Source: Candidatus Tanganyikabacteria bacterium (GTDB lineage Bacteria; Cyanobacteriota; Sericytochromatia; S15B-MN24; VGJW01). From it: a stretch of DNA of 39,358 nucleotides. The notes below the pieces were generated by a model. That model made no database searches, had not been told where the DNA came from, and saw only the letters and a program-made list of their open reading frames with translations. Shown in pieces: positions 1 through 17,650 of the stretch. The stretch is from NCBI GenBank assembly GCA_016867235.1, contig VGJY01000016.1, positions 1-39,358 of the forward strand, written 5' to 3'. The translations under genes were made by a program, and so were the position numbers. The first letter of the stretch is position 1. The number at the start of each line of letters is the position of its first letter.

Positions 1-42
1 CGTCATAGCGGCGCTCAAATGACCTGGCGCCTATCGGACGCA

Positions 43-93
43 GGCACGGAGGCCTGCGCCACCGATGCAACGGGTGGGGCCGGCCTCCGTGCC
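43..93. repeat. Palindromic hairpin repeat (element 1)
   Basis: Perfect 12-base inverted arms (GGCACGGAGGCC at 43-54 and its reverse complement at 82-93) enclose a core with a weaker inner pairing (CCACC against GGTGG). The element lies just beyond the 3' end of the antiporter gene on the minus strand. Its inner core resembles that of the hairpin at 11422-11502, so both may belong to a dispersed palindromic repeat family. It could also serve as a terminator, although no T-run follows. I see no gene in bases 1-131. Confidence 0.55.
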
Positions 94-2186: not shown

Positions 2187-2276
2187 GGGCTACCAGCCAA
2201 GCATGTCGAGGCTCTGCCCGTGTGGCCCGCGCTTGAACCCTCGATTAACCAGGCTGCCTACGTGCCACATCAGTGG

Positions 2277-2303
2277 CAAGGTCCGCGCGGCGACCGCCGA
2301 TAA
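2277..2303 (+). promoter_or_regulatory. Sigma-28 (FliA/SigD)-like promoter
   Basis: CAAG at 2277-2280 is followed by exactly 15 bases and then GCCGATAA at 2296-2303. The -10 element is identical to the published FliA/sigma-28 consensus. The -35 CAAG differs from TAAA but recalls the TCAAG reported for some sigma-28 promoters. It lies 21 bases upstream of the start codon at 2325. The same CAAG-15-GCCGATAA arrangement recurs at 3826-3852. Confidence 0.5.
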
Positions 2304-2324
2304 CCCCAGCGGAGGAGTGAGTCG

Positions 2325-3083
2325 ATGGCCGTTGCCATGGTGTCGGCAGCCAACGCGCCGCAGAAGCGGCAAGCGCTGGTTACGTCGGTTGCCGCGGCGC
2401 AGCCCCGCTCCCTCGTCGACAACCTGATCCTGACCAACAAGGCGATGCTGCGCCAGGTCAAGGACGATGCGGTCGGCGCCTTGAAGAACCCCTTGGGCCC
2501 GCTCGGCACCATGCTCGAGGGCCTGGTGTACCCGTTCTTGCACCCGGTCGCCACGGTCAAGGGGATGATCAAGGCGGTCAAGGAAGATCCGGCCGATGGG
2601 CTCGCGAGCGCCGCAGGCACCGTTGGCGGCCTTGGCTGGTTCACGGCCGTGGTCGTGGCTGCCTTGGCCGTGGTCGCCGCACCGGTGACCGGCGGAGCGA
2701 GTTTGGCGATTGCCGCCCCCGCCTTCGCCGTCGGCAATGCGTTCTTTGCCGGCCTGATGATCGCCGACACCGCCGGCATCCTGCTCCACCAGTACCGCGG
2801 CGCCACGGCAAAATCGTCCGGCGAGGCCATGGCCGAGGGCGTGGCGATGGCGTCATACGTCGAGGACCAGGCGCTCAACATCCTGGCCTGGGCCGGCAGC
2901 AACGCCTTGGAAACCCGCGTCGGCCGGATGGTGAGCAGGGAGGCCGCGAGGGCGGGCGGGCGCGTGGTCGGCGAGGGCCTCGGCGTGATGGGCATCTACG
3001 ACATGCCTGCCGCGCAGGTGCGCCATCTAGTCCAGAAGGCCGGGGCGGCCGCCAAGCCGGTCGTCAAGCAGGCGAAACCCTAG
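2325..3083 (+). CDS. Hydrophobic protein of unknown function
   Basis: The 252-residue protein is not recognised. After an Ala-rich N-terminus and an amphipathic stretch (about 28-85) come two hydrophobic, Gly/Ala-rich segments (about 97-128 and 130-152), then an amphipathic Ala-rich C-terminal half ending in a basic Lys-rich tail. No signal peptide is evident. The hydrophobic region resembles a membrane hairpin and is reminiscent in style of the C-terminus of the 27696-29147 protein, though no real homology is shown. The ATG at 2325 follows a good GGAGG site at 2311-2315 with 9-base spacing. The sigma-28-like promoter just upstream suggests regulation with motility or cell-wall genes. Confidence 0.75.
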   Translation: MAVAMVSAANAPQKRQALVTSVAAAQPRSLVDNLILTNKAMLRQVKDDAVGALKNPLGPLGTMLEGLVYPFLHPVATVKGMIKAVKEDPADGLASAAGTVGGLGWFTAVVVAALAVVAAPVTGGASLAIAAPAFAVGNAFFAGLMIADTAGILLHQYRGATAKSSGEAMAEGVAMASYVEDQALNILAWAGSNALETRVGRMVSREAARAGGRVVGEGLGVMGIYDMPAAQVRHLVQKAGAAAKPVVKQAKP

Positions 3084-3117
3084 CGTTCCGGCGCGAAACC
3101 TGGCACGCTCGGACGCG

Positions 3118-3834
3118 ATGCCGGGCGACCTCCACGAATCGACCGAGACGCTCGCCGGGGCGCCGGCCCTGCTGGTCTGGCGCGGCGATCGGCGCCAGGC
3201 CGCGGCCACCGGCACGATCCTGTTCTACCACGGTCTGGGCGCCGCCAAGGAGGCCAATCGGCCCGAACTCCACGACCTGGCTCGGCGCGGTTTCCTGGCG
3301 ATCGGGATCGACGTCGTGGGACACGGCGAGCGGCGGTACCCCGACTTCGAGAGTCGCTTCGGAGCGGCCGATCCGCGGCCGGAGTGCCTCCAATGCGTCG
3401 CCGGTTCGGTCGGCGAGGTCCCGCGCATCGTGGATGCGCTGGCTGCCGACGCCGCGCGTTTCGGCATCGCCGGCATCTCGCTGGGCGCCTACATCCTCTA
3501 CGGGGCACTGCTGGCCGACCGCCGGCTGCAGGTGGCCGCTGCCATCCTGGGATCGCCGCGGTGGTGGTTCGACCCGCCGGACAGCCCGCACCGCCACCCG
3601 GACCGGTTCTTCCCCCGCGCCCTGTTGAGTCAGAACGCCGGGCGCGACGAGAACGTGCCTCCCGGCGAGGCGCAGGCCTTCCACGCGGCCCTTTCCCCGC
3701 ACTACCAGGCGGCGCCCGACCGGCAGCGCCACGTCATGTTCCCGCACTCCGGGCATTTCATGAACGATCCCGACTGGCGCTCGCTCTGGGACAGCACCTT
3801 GACCTGGTTCGACCGCCACTTGAAGCAAGCCTGA
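3118..3834 (+). CDS. Alpha/beta hydrolase (dienelactone hydrolase/esterase-like)
   Basis: The 238-residue protein has the alpha/beta hydrolase layout: an early strand with YHGLG (about 37-41, the oxyanion region), the nucleophile elbow G-I-S-L-G with Ser121, a likely acid Asp177 in NAGRDENVPP, and a catalytic His213 in HSGHF. This makes a complete Ser-Asp-His triad of the kind seen in prolyl-oligopeptidase-like and YjfP-type carboxylesterases. No signal peptide is visible, so it is probably cytosolic. The substrate is unknown. It begins 34 bases after the previous gene and may be cotranscribed with it. The ATG lacks a convincing Shine-Dalgarno sequence. Confidence 0.85.
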   Translation: MPGDLHESTETLAGAPALLVWRGDRRQAAATGTILFYHGLGAAKEANRPELHDLARRGFLAIGIDVVGHGERRYPDFESRFGAADPRPECLQCVAGSVGEVPRIVDALAADAARFGIAGISLGAYILYGALLADRRLQVAAAILGSPRWWFDPPDSPHRHPDRFFPRALLSQNAGRDENVPPGEAQAFHAALSPHYQAAPDRQRHVMFPHSGHFMNDPDWRSLWDSTLTWFDRHLKQA

Positions 3835-3852
3835 GCCGACCTCCGCCGATAA
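3826..3852 (+). promoter_or_regulatory. Sigma-28 (FliA/SigD)-like promoter
   Basis: CAAG at 3826-3829 (within the end of the hydrolase gene) is followed by 15 bases and then GCCGATAA at 3845-3852. It lies 43 bases upstream of the GTG start at 3896. The architecture is identical to the element at 2277-2303. In Bacillus, SigD, the orthologous sigma factor, drives NlpC/P60 autolysin genes such as lytF. That fits the NlpC/P60 product encoded here. Confidence 0.5.
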
Positions 3853-3895: not shown

Positions 3896-5062
3896 GTGGG
3901 CGAGCCGATCGATCGCCGCGCGGAATACGACGCGTTGCGGGCTGCGAATCCGAAACTCGACATGACGCTGCGCGAGTATCGGGACCGGATGCGCAAGGAA
4001 AACTCGTTCGCGGGGCTGGACAGGGACAACGACGGGTCGCTGTCGCGGGCCGAACTGCAAAAGCTCGATACCTACAACGGCCTGGCGAGCTACCGGACCG
4101 ACGCCGCCGGCAGCGTCTCCAAGGCCGATTTCCTCGCCGGCCGGCGGGACGATCTGGCGGCCAACCGCGAGGCCCTGGTCGCCAAGCGGTACGGCGCCCT
4201 AACGGCCGAGGAGCGGCGCGACTGGACCGCCCGCCATGATGCCGACGGCGACGGCAACCTCTCGCTCGAGGAGTATCGCGCCGGCCGCGAGGCGCGGCGG
4301 GACGCGCGCCTGGGCGACATGTTCGACAAGCTCGGCGCGCGGCGCAGCACGCTGGATCTCGAACCCGAGGACAGGCTCCTGGCCAGGCTGGATGCCGACG
4401 GCGACGGCACGCTCACCCGCGAGGAGTTCATCGCCGGCGTCGTGGCAGATCGCCGGGAGTCCGTCATTCTCGACGGCACCGAGGGCATCCTCGCGAAGAT
4501 CCGGGCGGAGCTGGACCGCCAGGACGCGACCCAGCAGCCCGGGCCGAAGCCCGGCCAGCAGCCCGGACCGAAACCCGGCCAGCAGCCCGGGCCGAAGCCC
4601 GGTCAGCAGCCCGGACCGAAACCCGGCCAGCAGCCCGGGCCCGAGCAGGGTGCCGAACCCAAGCCCGGTCCGAAGCCCGGCAAGGACGCCAGGGCCGACG
4701 CGCTGCGCGCGAAGGTCGTCGCGGCGGCCAAGGAGTATCTGGGGACGCCGTACCTCTGGGCAGGATCCAGCAAGAACGGCATCGACTGCTCCGGCCTCAC
4801 GCTGCGGGCCTACGAGGCGATCGGCAAGGATCTGCCGCACTACTCGGCGGCGCAGTCGAATCTCGGGCGCGACGTGGGACCGGGCAAGCTCAAGCCGGGC
4901 GACCTGGTCTTCTTCGACTACTCTTCCGCCCGGGCCGGCATCGACCACGTGGGCATGTACGTAGGCAAGGGCCAGGTCATCCAGGCGGTCTCGAAGGGAG
5001 TCAGCTACGCCAGCCTCTCCTCGTTGAAGGACGACATCGTGGACACGTCGCGGCTGATCTGA
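3896..5062 (+). CDS. EF-hand and NlpC/P60 domain protein (putative peptidoglycan endopeptidase)
   Basis: The 388-residue protein has an N-terminal calcium-binding-like half with three good EF-hand loops (DRDNDGSLSRAE at 42-53, DADGDGNLSLEE at 115-126, DADGDGTLTREE at 166-177) and a degenerate one near 68-79. A Pro/Gly linker of about four and a half QQPGPKPG repeats (213-248) follows. The C-terminal NlpC/P60 domain (about 268-388) has the catalytic Cys298 in DCSG and His351 in DHVGMYVG. The third polar position, often His, appears to be Gln363. Such enzymes cut gamma-D-Glu-diamino acid bonds in cell-wall peptides. No signal peptide is seen from the GTG start, so the export route is unclear. 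Calcium control of activity is inferred from the domain order only. Confidence 0.88.
   Translation: MGEPIDRRAEYDALRAANPKLDMTLREYRDRMRKENSFAGLDRDNDGSLSRAELQKLDTYNGLASYRTDAAGSVSKADFLAGRRDDLAANREALVAKRYGALTAEERRDWTARHDADGDGNLSLEEYRAGREARRDARLGDMFDKLGARRSTLDLEPEDRLLARLDADGDGTLTREEFIAGVVADRRESVILDGTEGILAKIRAELDRQDATQQPGPKPGQQPGPKPGQQPGPKPGQQPGPKPGQQPGPEQGAEPKPGPKPGKDARADALRAKVVAAAKEYLGTPYLWAGSSKNGIDCSGLTLRAYEAIGKDLPHYSAAQSNLGRDVGPGKLKPGDLVFFDYSSARAGIDHVGMYVGKGQVIQAVSKGVSYASLSSLKDDIVDTSRLI
4532..4639 (+). repeat. 24-base tandem repeat encoding QQPGPKPG
   Basis: About four and a half direct copies of a 24-base unit, differing by synonymous changes, encode a flexible Pro/Gly linker between the EF-hand and NlpC/P60 regions. 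Copy number may vary between strains through slippage or recombination. Confidence 0.85.
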
Positions 5063-5067
5063 GCAGA

Positions 5068-5706
5068 ATGTGTGCCATGAACAAGATGGCACTGCTTACC
5101 GCTACACTCTCGATCCTCGCCATCGCGGGCCCGGCCCATGCCGAGAGTTTCACGATCGCCGAGGACAACCACACGGTCAACGAGGTGAGCTTCACCTCCA
5201 TCGCTCCCCTGGTCCGCATGGTCGGCCGGACTCAGGACGTCACGGGCCAGGCCGACATCGACATCAACAGGCCCGCCGCGGCGAAGGGGCGGTTCGTGGT
5301 CGACCTCTCGTCGCTCCAGACCGGCATCAAGCGCCGGGACGCGCACATGCGGGACATGATCGAGGTGACGAAGTTCCCGACGGCCGTCCTGGAGGTCGAC
5401 CGCGTCGAGGGTGCCCCGAAGGCGCTCGAACCGGGCAAGACCGCCCACATCAAGGCCGTCGGCCGCTTCACCATTCATGGCGTCACCCGCGACGTGACGG
5501 TTCCGGGGCAGATCACCTTCCTGCCGGAAACCAAGGGCACGCGGGACGGCAACTGGGTCCTCCTGGAGTCGCGCTTCCCGTTGCTGCTGGTCGACTACGG
5601 CATCGCGTTGCCCAAGCCGTTGCTTGGCATCAAGGTCGCCGACACGGTCACCATCGATGTCAGCGCCATGGCGCGAGCCGGCGTACCCCAGGCCGGCAAG
5701 CAGTAG
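5068..5706 (+). CDS. YceI-family periplasmic protein
   Basis: The 212-residue protein starts with a typical signal peptide ending in GPAHA, with predicted cleavage before ESF. The mature part has the YceI lipocalin-like pattern: an early VSFTS strand, GQADIDINRPAAAKGRFVVD, the segment GIKRRDAHMRDMIEVTKFP and FTIHGVTRDVTVPGQI. YceI proteins form a beta-barrel that binds polyisoprenoid chains and are often induced by alkaline or osmotic stress. The ATG at 5068 is used here. An in-frame ATG at 5077 would give a neater signal peptide. It follows the NlpC/P60 gene by 5 bases and leads into the msrA genes, so an envelope-stress operon is likely. Confidence 0.9.
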   Translation: MCAMNKMALLTATLSILAIAGPAHAESFTIAEDNHTVNEVSFTSIAPLVRMVGRTQDVTGQADIDINRPAAAKGRFVVDLSSLQTGIKRRDAHMRDMIEVTKFPTAVLEVDRVEGAPKALEPGKTAHIKAVGRFTIHGVTRDVTVPGQITFLPETKGTRDGNWVLLESRFPLLLVDYGIALPKPLLGIKVADTVTIDVSAMARAGVPQAGKQ

Positions 5707-5739: not shown

Positions 5740-6363
5740 ATGGGTAAACTACTTAGGCGTCTCGGCCTGGCCCTGCTCGCCTGCCTCTTCGTGGTGCCGG
5801 CGGCATGGGCGAAGGCGGAGCCTGCCGAGGTGGCGACACTGGGCGGGGGCTGCTTCTGGTGCATCGAGGCGATCTACCAGGAGCTGCGAGGCGTCCGGAA
5901 GGTGGAATCCGGCTACTCGGGCGGTGCCGCCGCGAATCCCAGCTACGAAGAAGTCGGGAGCGGCAAGTCGGGCCACGCCGAGGTCGTGCAGATCACCTTC
6001 GATCCGCGGAGCGTGACGTACAGGGACCTGCTGGAGGTCTTCTTCACCGTCCACGACCCGACGACTCCCGACCGGCAGGGCGCCGATGTCGGGCCCCAGT
6101 ACCGCTCGGTCGTGTTCTACCACTCCCCGGCCCAGAAAGCCGTCGCCGAGGCGGTGATGAGCGAAATCGCGAGGCAGCGAGTCTGGAAGGACCCGCTAGT
6201 CACGGAATTGGTGCCCTTCAAGGCTTTCTACAAGGCCGAGGTCTACCACCAGCAGTACTACGCCCGCAACCCGAACCAGCCCTACTGCGCGATCGTCATC
6301 GCGCCGAAGGTCGCGAAGTTTCGCAGGAAGTTCCTGTCCAGGCTCAAGGCGGGCAAGTCCTGA
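5740..6363 (+). CDS. msrA: Exported peptide-methionine (S)-S-oxide reductase MsrA
   Basis: The 207-residue protein has a signal peptide (about residues 1-24, ending PAAWA) followed by a complete MsrA domain. The GCFWC motif places the catalytic Cys at residue 38. The family segments GHAEVVQITFDP, DPTTPDRQGADVGPQYRS and QPYC (Cys183, candidate resolving residue) are present. MsrA reduces methionine-S-sulfoxide in oxidised proteins. With the signal peptide this copy should act outside the cytoplasm. It lacks the Cys found in the YEEVCSG motif of the neighbouring copy (Gly here). How an exported MsrA receives electrons is not shown by this window. It is followed 16 bases later by a second msrA. 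Confidence 0.94.
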   Translation: MGKLLRRLGLALLACLFVVPAAWAKAEPAEVATLGGGCFWCIEAIYQELRGVRKVESGYSGGAAANPSYEEVGSGKSGHAEVVQITFDPRSVTYRDLLEVFFTVHDPTTPDRQGADVGPQYRSVVFYHSPAQKAVAEAVMSEIARQRVWKDPLVTELVPFKAFYKAEVYHQQYYARNPNQPYCAIVIAPKVAKFRRKFLSRLKAGKS

Positions 6364-13921: not shown

Positions 13922-15358
13922 CTAGGGGGCAGTCGAGCCCTGGCGCCGGCGCCGCAGGCGCAGCCACAGCCCCGCAAGCGCGGTTCCGGCGAGCAGGGCC
14001 AGCGCCGCCCCGGTCTCCAGGGCGGTCTGCCACCACGGGACGTAGTAGAGGCGCGCCTCGCCGGCGCGCACCAGTTGTTGCGCGCGGTTCGAGAGGTTGC
14101 CCGGCACCGTCAGGCCCAGCCCGCGCAGTAGCTCCGGCAACATCGTGTGGAGCACGGGGTGGCCGCGCAGGTAGTGGACGCGCGGATCGAGGCGGTAGCG
14201 GGCCGGCGCCGCGTCGTCGATGACGAAGTACGGCCCCTCGCGGACGTGCCGTTCGAAGTCGGGATCGTCCGCGTCGCCGATGAGGAACGTCGGCACGCCC
14301 CGCAACGCCATGGCCTTGACCCAGGTGCCGTCGCGCAGGAACAGGTCGGCGACGGACTTCCAGTGCCCGAGGGTTCCGGCATACGTCACCCCGCCGCCGA
14401 CGATGACGTTGAACGGAAAGTAATCCCAGCCCTGGCGCGGGCGCCGCGCCTCGACGCGCGCCGCCTCGAGCGGCACGCCCAGGATGCCGATGGCGTCCGG
14501 GTCCGCCGTACCGAGGCCGATCGCGGCCCCCTCGGCCGCGAAGCGCAGGGTCGCGGGATCCAGGCCGAGCAGGCGGCAGATCGTGACGTCCATGGCGACC
14601 GGATCCGTGGCGGCCAGGACGCACCCGCACCAGCGCGGGGTGTTGGCTAGAGGCCCGTCGCCCTCACCCACGACGAGGGCGTCGCAGACGTTGAGGGCGG
14701 GGCGGGACACCGACATGACGTCCACCCACTCCTGGAACGCGAGCGCGTCGTGGTGCTCCTGGCGGCCCTCCTCCAGGCCGATGACGCCCACCCAGTTCTT
14801 GATCGCGCCCGAGATGGGATCCATGTGATGGGTCTTGGCCTTGCAGGCGTTGACGATCACGTCGGCGGCCAGCAGCGGCTCCGGCAGCCGGATCCGGCGC
14901 AGCGCCCTGCCGCCCGGGATTGCGACCTCGCGGTACCGGCACTCGTCGAAGAACACGATCTCGCCGCCGGCGGCCCTCACCGCCGAGGACATGCCGGTGG
15001 CCTGCATGACCAGCCAGGTCCGGTCCATGCCGGAACTCTCGCCGACCAGGACGCGCGCCGCGCCGGCTTCCCGGCAGAGGTTCAGGAGCGCCACGACCAC
15101 CCGCGGATCCGTCGTGATCCCTTCGTCGGCCAGCATCGGTCCGGTCTGGTTCGGCTTGATGAGCACGGTCTGGCCCGGCCGCACGAAGGTGCCCATCCCC
15201 CCGAAATGGTCGATCGCCTCGCGGACCAGGGCCGTGAGGGATTCCTGCGTCCGGTGTCGCTCCGCGGTGCGCGCGATCGCCACGGCGGCCCGGGCCCGCA
15301 CGACCCGCCGGACGCCCGGCGCCCGCCGCTCGGGCGGGAAGAACCGCTCGCCGCGCAT
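13922..15358 (-). CDS. DUF362-domain protein with C-terminal membrane anchor
   Basis: I place the start at ATG 15358, preceded by a strong GGAGGTGA site, giving 478 residues. The main body (about 20-430) matches the DUF362 pattern: VLIKPNQTG, DPRVVVALLNLCREAGAARV, ACKAKTHHMDPISGAIKN, and a Cys-containing ATDPVAMDVTICRLLGLDP. Members are often annotated as iron-sulfur-linked proteins, but the function is not firmly known. Here no ferredoxin-type cysteine cluster is visible. The C-terminus has one hydrophobic helix (about 450-470) followed by an Arg-rich tail, suggesting membrane attachment. The gene begins 2 bases after the stop of the debranching-type gene and is surely cotranscribed with it. 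Confidence 0.82.
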   Translation of the reverse strand: MRGERFFPPERRAPGVRRVVRARAAVAIARTAERHRTQESLTALVREAIDHFGGMGTFVRPGQTVLIKPNQTGPMLADEGITTDPRVVVALLNLCREAGAARVLVGESSGMDRTWLVMQATGMSSAVRAAGGEIVFFDECRYREVAIPGGRALRRIRLPEPLLAADVIVNACKAKTHHMDPISGAIKNWVGVIGLEEGRQEHHDALAFQEWVDVMSVSRPALNVCDALVVGEGDGPLANTPRWCGCVLAATDPVAMDVTICRLLGLDPATLRFAAEGAAIGLGTADPDAIGILGVPLEAARVEARRPRQGWDYFPFNVIVGGGVTYAGTLGHWKSVADLFLRDGTWVKAMALRGVPTFLIGDADDPDFERHVREGPYFVIDDAAPARYRLDPRVHYLRGHPVLHTMLPELLRGLGLTVPGNLSNRAQQLVRAGEARLYYVPWWQTALETGAALALLAGTALAGLWLRLRRRRQGSTAP

Positions 15359-15360
15359 CG

Positions 15361-17650
15361 TCACCTCACCTCCGGCAGCCATGCCCCGAGCAAGTCGAGC
15401 AGCCTGGTGGCCGTGGCACGCTCGGTGAGCGACCAGGGGCTCGGCTGCCTGATGAGCCGGATCTTTCCCTCGTGCTCCTCGAGCGAGACGTCCGTCCGCC
15501 CGTCCTGGCGCCTGCGGAAGTGCAGGGAGGCGACCGCTCGGCCCACGCGCAGGTTGCATAGCGAGATCTCCGGGAGCCACGGCGGTAGGTGCGGATCGGC
15601 CAGCAGTGCCGATTGTGGCGCGTACGGATACAGGCCCAGCACCGCCTGGAGCGCGCACACGAGCGCCGAGGACGACCACGCCTGGGGCCAGTTGGCCCGC
15701 GGGTAGAGCGCCGGGAAGGCGTGCTTCGGGTCTCGCTGGTGGCCGGCGAAGCATTCGGGCAATCGTTCGTCGTCGTACAGGGCCGCGGCTTCGAACAGCG
15801 CGCGCCACCAGGTCGACGTGGTCGAAGAGGCCGTAGCGCATGAACGCCAGCGCGAAGGTGCCGTTCTCGACCGGCCAGATCGAGCCGCGGTGGTAGGAGT
15901 AGGGATCGTAGGCCGGGTGGCGCGACGAGAGGGTCCGGATGCCCCAGCCCGAGAACAGGTCGCGGTCCACGAGGCGGCCGGCCGCGCGCAGGATCAGGTC
16001 GCGATCCACGATGCCGGTCGCCAGGCAATGCCCGGGATTGGACGCGACAGAGCGGATGCGCCGCTTGCGAGCGTCCAGGCCCAGCGCGAAGAACCCCAGA
16101 TCGTCGTCCCAGAACGCGTCGTTGAAGTGCTTCTTGAGCTCGGCGGCTTCCCGGAAGAGCTTTTCGGCCTCGGCGCGGTCGCCCAGCGACCACAGCACCT
16201 CCGCGAGCATGAACTTGGCGGCGTACACGAAGCCCTGCTCTTCGCAGGTCGCGATCGGCGGACGGACGGGGGCCCCGTCCTCGTCGACGATGGCGTCGCG
16301 AGAGTCCTTCCAGCCCTGGTGCTCGTTGCCTTGGGGGGAGCGCGTGAGGTACTCGTAGAAGCCGTCGCCGTCGAGATCGCCATGCGCATCGAGCCAGCGC
16401 AGCGCCCCCAGGGCCGCCGGAAGCAACTCCCGCACCAGGGCGGAATCGCCGGTCCAGTGCCAGAGTTCGGCGAGGGCCACCCCGAAGAAGGCCGACGTCG
16501 TCTGCGCGCCGTAGTACCGGTCGCGAGGCGTGTAACCCAGGGCGGCGAGCGGCCCCGTCTGGGCTTCGTGGAGCAGTTTCCCCGGTTGCTCGTCCCGCCA
16601 TGGATCGTCCCGCGTGCCCTTGAGCCGAGCGATGGCGGGCAGCGTGCCGCGCAGCATCTCGGGCCCGAGCAGGGCGGCCTGCCAGGCGGCGGTGAGCGTG
16701 TCGCGACCGAAGAGTGCCACGTAGTGGGGGAGGCCCGCGGCCATGGTCCAGGCGCGCTCGCCCACGTCCAGATCGCACAGCCGCAGGGCCGCCAGGTCGA
16801 ATCGCGCTCGCTCCAGGGCCGCGGCTACCGTCGGCGCCAGCGAACCGGTTTCCGGAAACGCGAAGCGCGCGGCCTCGGCCAGGAACGTGTCCCGGCGAAC
16901 GTCCTCTTCGTGCAGCGTGCGGCCGAACTCGTAGCAGGAATGGGCGGGGTGCAGCCACCGGCCGGCGACGTGGGGGATCAGGTCGAGGCAGGCGTGCCAG
17001 GACTCTCCAGGCAGGAGGGCGATCTCGAACTCGATGCGTCCCCGGACGTGCCGCGGCGGGGACGTCGCCGGGCCTATGCGCAGCAGGAGGCCGCGCACCA
17101 GGCGTGCCGAACGATGGGCGGCGACATGCCGGAACTCCAGTTGCCAGAACCCCGGCCGCGCCTGGCGCCAAGCCCGACGGGTGCGCCCCTTGTGGCGTCG
17201 CTTGGCCTCCGTCTCCTGCTGATCGGCGAAATCGGCCGCCACCTCGATGCCCAGCACGAACCGCGTCGGCACGCGAGCGTAGTTCGTGACGTCCAGGTCC
17301 TCGTGGCACCCGCCTCCGAGATAGCGGGAGCTGCGCAACTCGATCGTGCGGGCGGTCGCATCGCGCGCTTCCCCCCGTTCCGGACGGCAGTCCGGCGGCC
17401 ACGCAATGTAGTAGCCCAGGGACGAATGCTGCTGGACATTCGAGAAACCGGCCGGCTGCCAGGGTTTGCCGTCAATGCGGAAGGCGTAGCGCGACAGCAT
17501 GCGGGTCTGGTGGACGAAGAAGCCGAGTTCGGGCGATTCCGCGATCTCACCCGCGGCGTCGGTGACCAGCACCGCCCGGCCCTGGCTCACCACCCGGCTA
17601 CCGCTCCGCGGCCGAAGCCGCGCCAGCCACGCCCCCGATCGCCCGGACAT
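15361..17650 (-). CDS. Amylo-alpha-1,6-glucosidase/glycogen debranching-type protein, frameshifted
   Basis: The N-terminal part (GRAVLVTDAAGEIAESPELG, GFFVHQTRMLSRY) matches the GDE_N_bis domain. The central (alpha/alpha)6-barrel region carries GRDTLTAAW, the PY/YG segments and HRGSIWPVENG. This is the pattern of amylo-alpha-1,6-glucosidase-like glycosidases acting on glycogen or other alpha-glucans. The reading frame breaks near the GCGCGCGC tract at 15798-15805. After VDLVAR the homologous sequence (LFEAAALYDDERLPECFAG and the rest) continues in another frame to the stop at 15361. A one-base gain or two-base loss explains it. A sequencing error or a genuine inactivating or phase-variable indel are both possible. 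The start is uncertain: ATG 17650 (used) or TTG 17689. Confidence 0.82.

Follow-up and report, generated by a model that had tools for sequence, protein, structure and literature searches.

Two GCAAG-type sites and the genes around them

The window (the whole analyzed stretch of 39,358 nucleotides, contig C16) belongs to a Candidatus Tanganyikabacteria genome of 6.12 Mb in 514 contigs. Genes were predicted by a custom codon-bias caller trained on this genome, and the predicted starts may be off by some codons. Pattern counts below are genome-wide, and the background was taken from a sample of 1.64 Mb, about a third of the genome.

All genes considered at this locus are on the plus strand. The gene at 2325..3083 encodes a 252-aa protein with no Pfam or NCBIfam match. 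It is followed by the gene of an alpha/beta hydrolase (3118..3834; Peptidase_S9 above the cut-off), by the gene of a 388-aa EF-hand and NlpC/P60 protein (3896..5062; domain matches), and by genes encoding a YceI-like protein (5077..5706) and a peptide methionine sulfoxide reductase (5740..6363).

CAAG-N15-GCCGATAA occurs on the plus strand at 2277-2303 and 3826-3852, in both cases upstream of a gene start, exactly where the initial annotation had placed it. The fuller form of these sites is GCAAG-N15-GCCGATAA, at 2276-2303 (putative promoter 1) and 3825-3852 (putative promoter 2). In promoter 1, scoring 23.7 as a whole with the relatives-only matrix (see below), the -35-like GCAAG is at 2276..2280, and the -10-like GCCGATAA (2296..2303) ends 21 nt upstream of the ATG at 2325. 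The Shine-Dalgarno-like GGAGGAG (2311-2317) closely trails this -10 element, hence the predicted leader is very short (only about 14 nt). In promoter 2 (score 22.6 with the same matrix), GCAAG (3825..3829) overlaps the 3'-terminal codons of the hydrolase gene (stop codon 3832-3834), and GCCGATAA (3845..3852) ends 43 nt upstream of the GTG at 3896. The yceI-like and reductase genes are possibly co-transcribed from promoter 2.

Both sites have the sigma-28 -10 sequence and a spacing of 15 nt, within the sigma-28 range of 14-16. Their -35 element is GCAAG, sharing three of five letters with TAAAG, and for this reason they were not filed as canonical sigma-28 promoters. The description of these sites as sigma-28-like promoters in the initial annotation is thus borne out by the -10 element, the spacing, the placement, and the presence of a FliA gene (see below), but not by the -35 element.

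In the 388-aa protein, EF-hands and a proline-rich repeat linker are combined with an NlpC/P60 domain at the C-terminus. Over its EF-hand part it shares 43% identity with a protein encoded on contig C143, whose gene has the same promoter type. As judged by eye, a hydrophobic signal segment is lacking from the N-terminus of the NlpC/P60 protein, which does not fit a wall hydrolase exported by means of a signal peptide. For both the protein and its C143 paralogue, a type III effector family with EF-hands is among the sub-threshold NCBIfam matches, which is only suggestive of such a role.

The 2325 protein has a hydrophobic middle part and no signal peptide. Its relatives are found in six of the 59 searched genomes, its own included. 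In two of these genomes, G006 (L151) and G005 (L152), the matching segment forms the N-terminal module of a longer protein that ends with a PARP-like domain (Pfam E-values 3e-7 and 1e-5, the latter match being just below the curated cut-off). Of the role that had been proposed for this protein, membership in the same regulon is supported, but participation in wall hydrolysis is not, as its relatives include N-terminal modules of PARP-like-ended proteins. Among the five other homologues that were scored, only the one from G001 has a candidate site (score 11.2, 37 nt from the ATG), and no class promoter was found ahead of the homologues in G004 (one gene) and G006 (three genes). The AlphaFold model of the 2325 protein was set aside (mean pLDDT 47).

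Over-representation and placement of the sites

The 8-mer GCCGATAA taken alone is not over-represented in the genome (50 occurrences vs 58 for the reversed word), and a genome-wide excess was therefore rejected. Its placement is not random: 19 of the 50 occurrences are intergenic, compared to 12.6% for letter permutations in the 1.64 Mb sample, and eight of the 50 lie 20-51 nt upstream of a gene start in the sense orientation, compared to 1.5% for permutations (binomial P about 1e-6). Thus the random placement that the initial annotation had named as an argument against promoters is not what is observed. However, other ATAA-containing permutations, e.g. CGGATAAC, are likewise concentrated upstream of genes; as ATAA words are favored there in general, the 8-mer placement test alone is not specific, and the specific tests are the spaced-pair and cross-species ones. 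The genome scan for CAAG-N14-16-GCCGATAA, proposed in the initial annotation, yields three exact matches in 6.12 Mb (one for the reversed control), two of them being the window sites and the third being antisense within a gene. Since the statistics were devised after these sites had been seen, the argument is carried by the tests from which the window sites were omitted.

In the spaced-pair test, performed on 870 upstream regions with both window genes omitted, each of the 256 tetramers located 15 or 16 nt ahead of CCGA was compared with its own counts at other spacings. CAAG-N16-CCGA is the top one among the 512 spaced pairs (10 observed vs 1.79 expected, P = 1.9e-5). This pair is also raised on the complementary strand of these regions (8), part of which may come from divergent promoters. 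As a positive control, the sigma-70 pair TTGA-N19-TAnnnT emerges from a test of this type (13 vs 3.0), and no comparable peak at P < 0.04 was seen for the control -10 words GCCGG, GCCCA and GACGA.

The relaxed pattern CAAG-N15/16-CCGATA has 24 matches in the genome vs nine for the reversed pattern, 16 being intergenic and eight within genes. Thirteen of the 24 are at most 103 nt upstream of a gene, with 3.3% of strand positions lying within 150 nt. The base ahead of CAAG is G in all 12 upstream sites retained in the class (background 39%), this column not having been used in the site selection.

The relatives-only matrix was built from 17 of 25 upstream sites of five related genomes (G001, G004, G006, G007, G008), none from the studied genome, and the eight omitted sites have a spacing shorter by one base. 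With this matrix, the window sites rank second and third among the upstream matches in the 1.64 Mb sample, where six matches scoring at least 20 are found upstream of genes and none elsewhere. The mean number of upstream matches for 60 column-shuffled matrices is 0.03, and shifted spacings yield 0-1.

One of these six matches is a look-alike. The site upstream of an HTH gene on contig C56 (L309) lies in a palindrome and was dropped from the class; the same HTH gene in G003 (L398) is preceded by the same palindrome-like stretch around GCCGATAGTATA, which is probably the operator of the HTH gene itself and not a class promoter. This site is absent from the final 12. It is still included in the counts of 10 spaced pairs, 13 pattern sites within 103 nt and six matrix matches scoring at least 20, and among the 10 training sites of the matrix derived from the studied genome.

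Apart from the two window genes, the 12 sites precede the gene of the EF-hand paralogue mentioned above (C143), and genes encoding a LysM and C39-like protein (C65), a DSP-type phosphatase lipoprotein (C3), a lipoprotein with a weak DUF2092 match (C58), a type IV pilin-like protein (C85), a Uma2-type protein (C129), a protein with a weak phosphotransferase match (C144), and three proteins that have no Pfam match or were left unscanned (C73, C222, C48). The C143 site, 44 nt upstream of the start, is unusually strong, scoring 27.7 with the matrix of this genome (the site being among those used to train that matrix). Weaker members by the matrix score are a CAP-domain protein (C31), a second DSP phosphatase (C61), and an LssY_C protein (C35). 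By eye, many class products start without a signal peptide. The excess of lipoproteins is weak (five of 20 genes at scores of at least 13, P = 0.02; one of 16 at scores of at least 14, P = 0.76). The class is broader than a wall-hydrolase regulon, its members being mostly surface, wall-acting and effector-like genes, and the Bacillus-like cell-wall hydrolase regulon initially suggested is too narrow for a class containing phosphatases, a pilin, lipoproteins, the LysM-C39 protein and unclassified proteins without signal peptides.

In the relatives, class sites precede genes of lipoproteins (by eye) and others, in particular a glucosaminidase that has a proline-rich linker but lacks a signal peptide and a GGDEF protein (both in G008), and a phospholipase D-like protein (G006). 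When a separate caller was trained for each relative, the sites were upstream of genes in six of 17 cases in G006 (this count takes in one more locus set), five of eight in G007, and eight of 18 in G008 (where 18 of the 20 pattern sites are considered), and the first caller gave eight of 16, two of eight, and 11 of 18 in the same genomes. In G003, only three of 18 pattern sites lie upstream of genes and 15 are coding, which could count against recognition by FliA or reflect the base composition and 64% completeness of this genome. No flagellin match was found in G003, but its use as a FliA-free control was abandoned, as a FliA with 81% identity is encoded by a similar genome, a relative with 52-54% G+C that may be identical to G003.

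TCAAG-N14/15-GCCGA was rejected as a promoter class: among its 154 matches, 29 of the 30 examined loci are inside genes, and the sole intergenic one is 532 nt from the next gene. In a general k-mer enrichment of the sense strand, the Shine-Dalgarno signal emerged, the other signals, ATAACC and GGGTAT, being weak. Unbiased dyads in upstream regions are dominated by repeats and by CTTAA direct repeats; in the sample of the studied genome, strong direct repeats CTTA(A)-N7-CTTA(A) upstream of genes resemble a two-half-site response-regulator box of the Pho-box kind.

Sigma factors and flagellar promoters

The initial annotation had asked for a sigma-28 gene in the genome. One FliA/WhiG gene is indeed present on contig C121, scoring above the curated cut-offs of both TIGR02479 (259 bits vs 189.6) and NF005413 (FliA; 246 vs 201). 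Relatives of this FliA at 67-81% identity come from Candidatus Tanganyikabacteria, Candidatus Sericytochromatia S15B-MN24, and genomes labelled only as 'bacterium' or 'Cyanobacteria bacterium', which most likely places the studied genome in the non-photosynthetic Tanganyikabacteria/Sericytochromatia branch of Cyanobacteriota. Three further sigma factor genes are of the SigB/F/G type (C328, C9, C72), and one more is of the ECF kind. The fliA gene belongs to the run flhA-cheR-cheA-cheC-cheD-fliA-cheW (names other than fliA were assigned by eye). In this run (L125, 13983-16043, minus strand), GCAAGG...GGCCATAAAC (score 14.8) is found 47 nt upstream of flhA, and may be an autoregulatory promoter of the GCAAG class.

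The flagellar promoters of this genome have a different -35 element. TAAAG-N14/15-GCCGA has 25 matches vs 23 for the reversed pattern, 18 of the 25 being intergenic, and precedes genes of flagellins, flaG, flgM and a flgB-like gene (by eye). Since these are its downstream genes, we regard TAAAG as the genuine flagellar class here. In particular, flgM (by eye) has the TAAAG form TAAAGTTCC...GCCGATAG 45 nt upstream. In two relatives the flgM-flgN genes are preceded by CAAG-N15/16-CCGATA, with TCAAGTTCC...ACCGATAA 43 nt upstream in G008 and TCAAGTTTC...TCCGATAG 78 nt upstream in G007, flgK, flgL and fliW being next after flgM-flgN in both genomes (by eye). As flgM follows the CAAG form in two relatives, the class is tied to sigma-28. 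Together, the flgM sites of the three genomes suggest that, most likely, C in the second position of the -35 element and any base ahead of CCGATA are acceptable to FliA of this order. The flgM promoters and the window sites would then differ only in the first letter of the -35 element, T in the former and G in the latter. As the -35 element of the window sites is GCAAG and that of the flagellar promoters in the same genome is TAAAG, recognition of the former by FliA is what we infer from these comparisons, and the window sites most likely work as sigma-28 promoters.

Interpretation and comparison with known systems

Our preferred reading, held with moderate confidence, is that both sites are sigma-28-type GCAAG-N15-nCCGATAA promoters, most likely read by the single FliA. 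In this order of non-photosynthetic Cyanobacteriota, FliA would run the flagellar genes from TAAAG-N14/15-GCCGA promoters and, additionally, use GCAAG promoters for a more numerous set of genes with surface, wall-acting and effector-like products. At this locus, transcription of the 2325 gene and the hydrolase gene would start at promoter 1, and that of the EF-hand NlpC/P60 gene, perhaps with yceI and msrA, at promoter 2. Export of FlgM would free FliA, and both gene sets would be switched on in swimming cells. The computation establishes the promoter class with its spacing, its placement ahead of genes and its occurrence in relatives, the FliA gene, and the class sites ahead of flgM in two relatives; reading of GCAAG by FliA, transcription from these sites, and action of the products outside the cell are what we infer.

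Two distinct -35 forms for one FliA are less simple than two sigma factors, and the invariant G in the 12 upstream sites makes a second sigma factor possible. Reading of the class by one of the three SigB/F/G-type factors, with specificity overlapping that of FliA, would agree with the clean GCAAG vs TAAAG split and with the lack of preference for G as the first base of the -10 element; still, we consider it rather unlikely, as the class retains the sigma-28 -10 element and spacing and precedes flgM-flgN, a classical sigma-28 target, in G007 and G008, and the -10 elements known for SigB/F/G factors are of the GGGTAT type. The mapped FliA class of Bdellovibrio is nearly the same (TTAAG-N16-CCGATA), which also argues against another sigma factor.

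It is improbable that the window sites are chance matches or other binding sites while the class itself exists. The exact 8-mer is common, the C56 palindrome shows that look-alikes occur, and promoter 1 has a very short leader, but the sites rank second and third with a matrix made without this genome, lie 21 and 43 nt ahead of genes, and have a strong counterpart 44 nt upstream of the EF-hand paralogue gene. Even less probable is a regulon of the Bacillus SigD type, with autolysins serving cell separation. In Bacillus, an NlpC/P60 autolysin gene is behind a sigma-28-type promoter in the SigD regulon, and SigD autolysins carry signal peptides. The first of these features is shared by the gene behind promoter 2, and an Amidase_3 lipoprotein gene with a TAAAG site 114 nt upstream and the glucosaminidase of G008 also fit; however, most co-promoted products are not wall hydrolases, and the NlpC/P60 protein, unlike the SigD autolysins, lacks a signal peptide; it also contains EF-hands and a proline-rich linker.

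The closest precedent is the attack-phase FliA regulon of Bdellovibrio bacteriovorus, where TTAAG-N16-CCGATA is found in 92 of the 140 attack-phase promoters that have been mapped. FliA has been proposed to regulate surface proteins and proteases globally in this bacterium, and its FliA-type promoters also reach many unknown genes (PMC3627812). In the genome studied here, NNAAG-N16-CCGATA is likewise found ahead of many non-flagellar genes, and in G007 and G008 ahead of flgM-flgN. The two systems share the -10 element CCGATA, the N16 spacing, a -35 element ending with AAG, the presence of FliA, and the breadth of the gene set, and differ in the first two bases of the -35 element, GCAAG here vs TTAAG there; moreover, the Bdellovibrio promoters have been mapped, whereas the class described here is predicted from sequence, and a predatory life would be hypothetical. 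Compared to the RpoF consensus TAAAAG-N15-GCCGATA of enterobacterial and Pseudomonas FliA promoters, as cited in PMC3247240, the window sites have the same -10 element GCCGATAA, N15 spacing and a cognate sigma gene, but differ in the -35 element and in the downstream genes, which are not flagellar or chemotaxis ones. In searches of the open-access literature, no papers on FliA promoters in Sericytochromatia or Tanganyikabacteria were found.

If the preferred reading, recognition of the GCAAG promoters by FliA, holds, the promoter signature, collecting surface, wall-acting and effector-like genes genome-wide, would be a testable sequence handle on the activity of swimming cells in uncultured non-photosynthetic sisters of cyanobacteria. 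It suggests that sigma-28 has broadened beyond flagella in a lineage distant from Bdellovibrio, and it would link the 2325 protein family to candidate effectors. A more speculative idea, doubtful at present, is that in Tanganyikabacteria/S15B-MN24 FliA has become the master switch of an arsenal for attack or contact, in parallel to Bdellovibrio and independently of it, with GCAAG as the second promoter tier. Such an arsenal would comprise EF-hand wall hydrolases, phospholipase D-like, phosphatase, kinase-like and hydrophobic PARP-module-related proteins, that is, modular proteins without signal peptides that would be made together with the flagellum and exit the cell through the flagellar export gate or some other dedicated machinery. 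In Campylobacter, non-flagellar proteins are reported to be exported through the flagellum (PMC5223770, PMC2764114); the similarity is in non-flagellar proteins being tied to the flagellar system, and flagellar export here is hypothetical.

Two other features of the window deserve mention. A 34-base dispersed repeat, GCGCAGGCCTCCGTGCCTGCGTCCGATAGGCGCC, is found at positions 26-59 (minus strand), as an exact copy at the contig start; it has 55 copies with at least 29 of 34 matches in the 1.64 Mb sample and includes CCGATA, thus producing false matches in promoter scans. At positions 13922-17593 (minus strand), an ORF of 1223 aa combines a glycogen-debranching-type region with DUF362, an unusual fusion.
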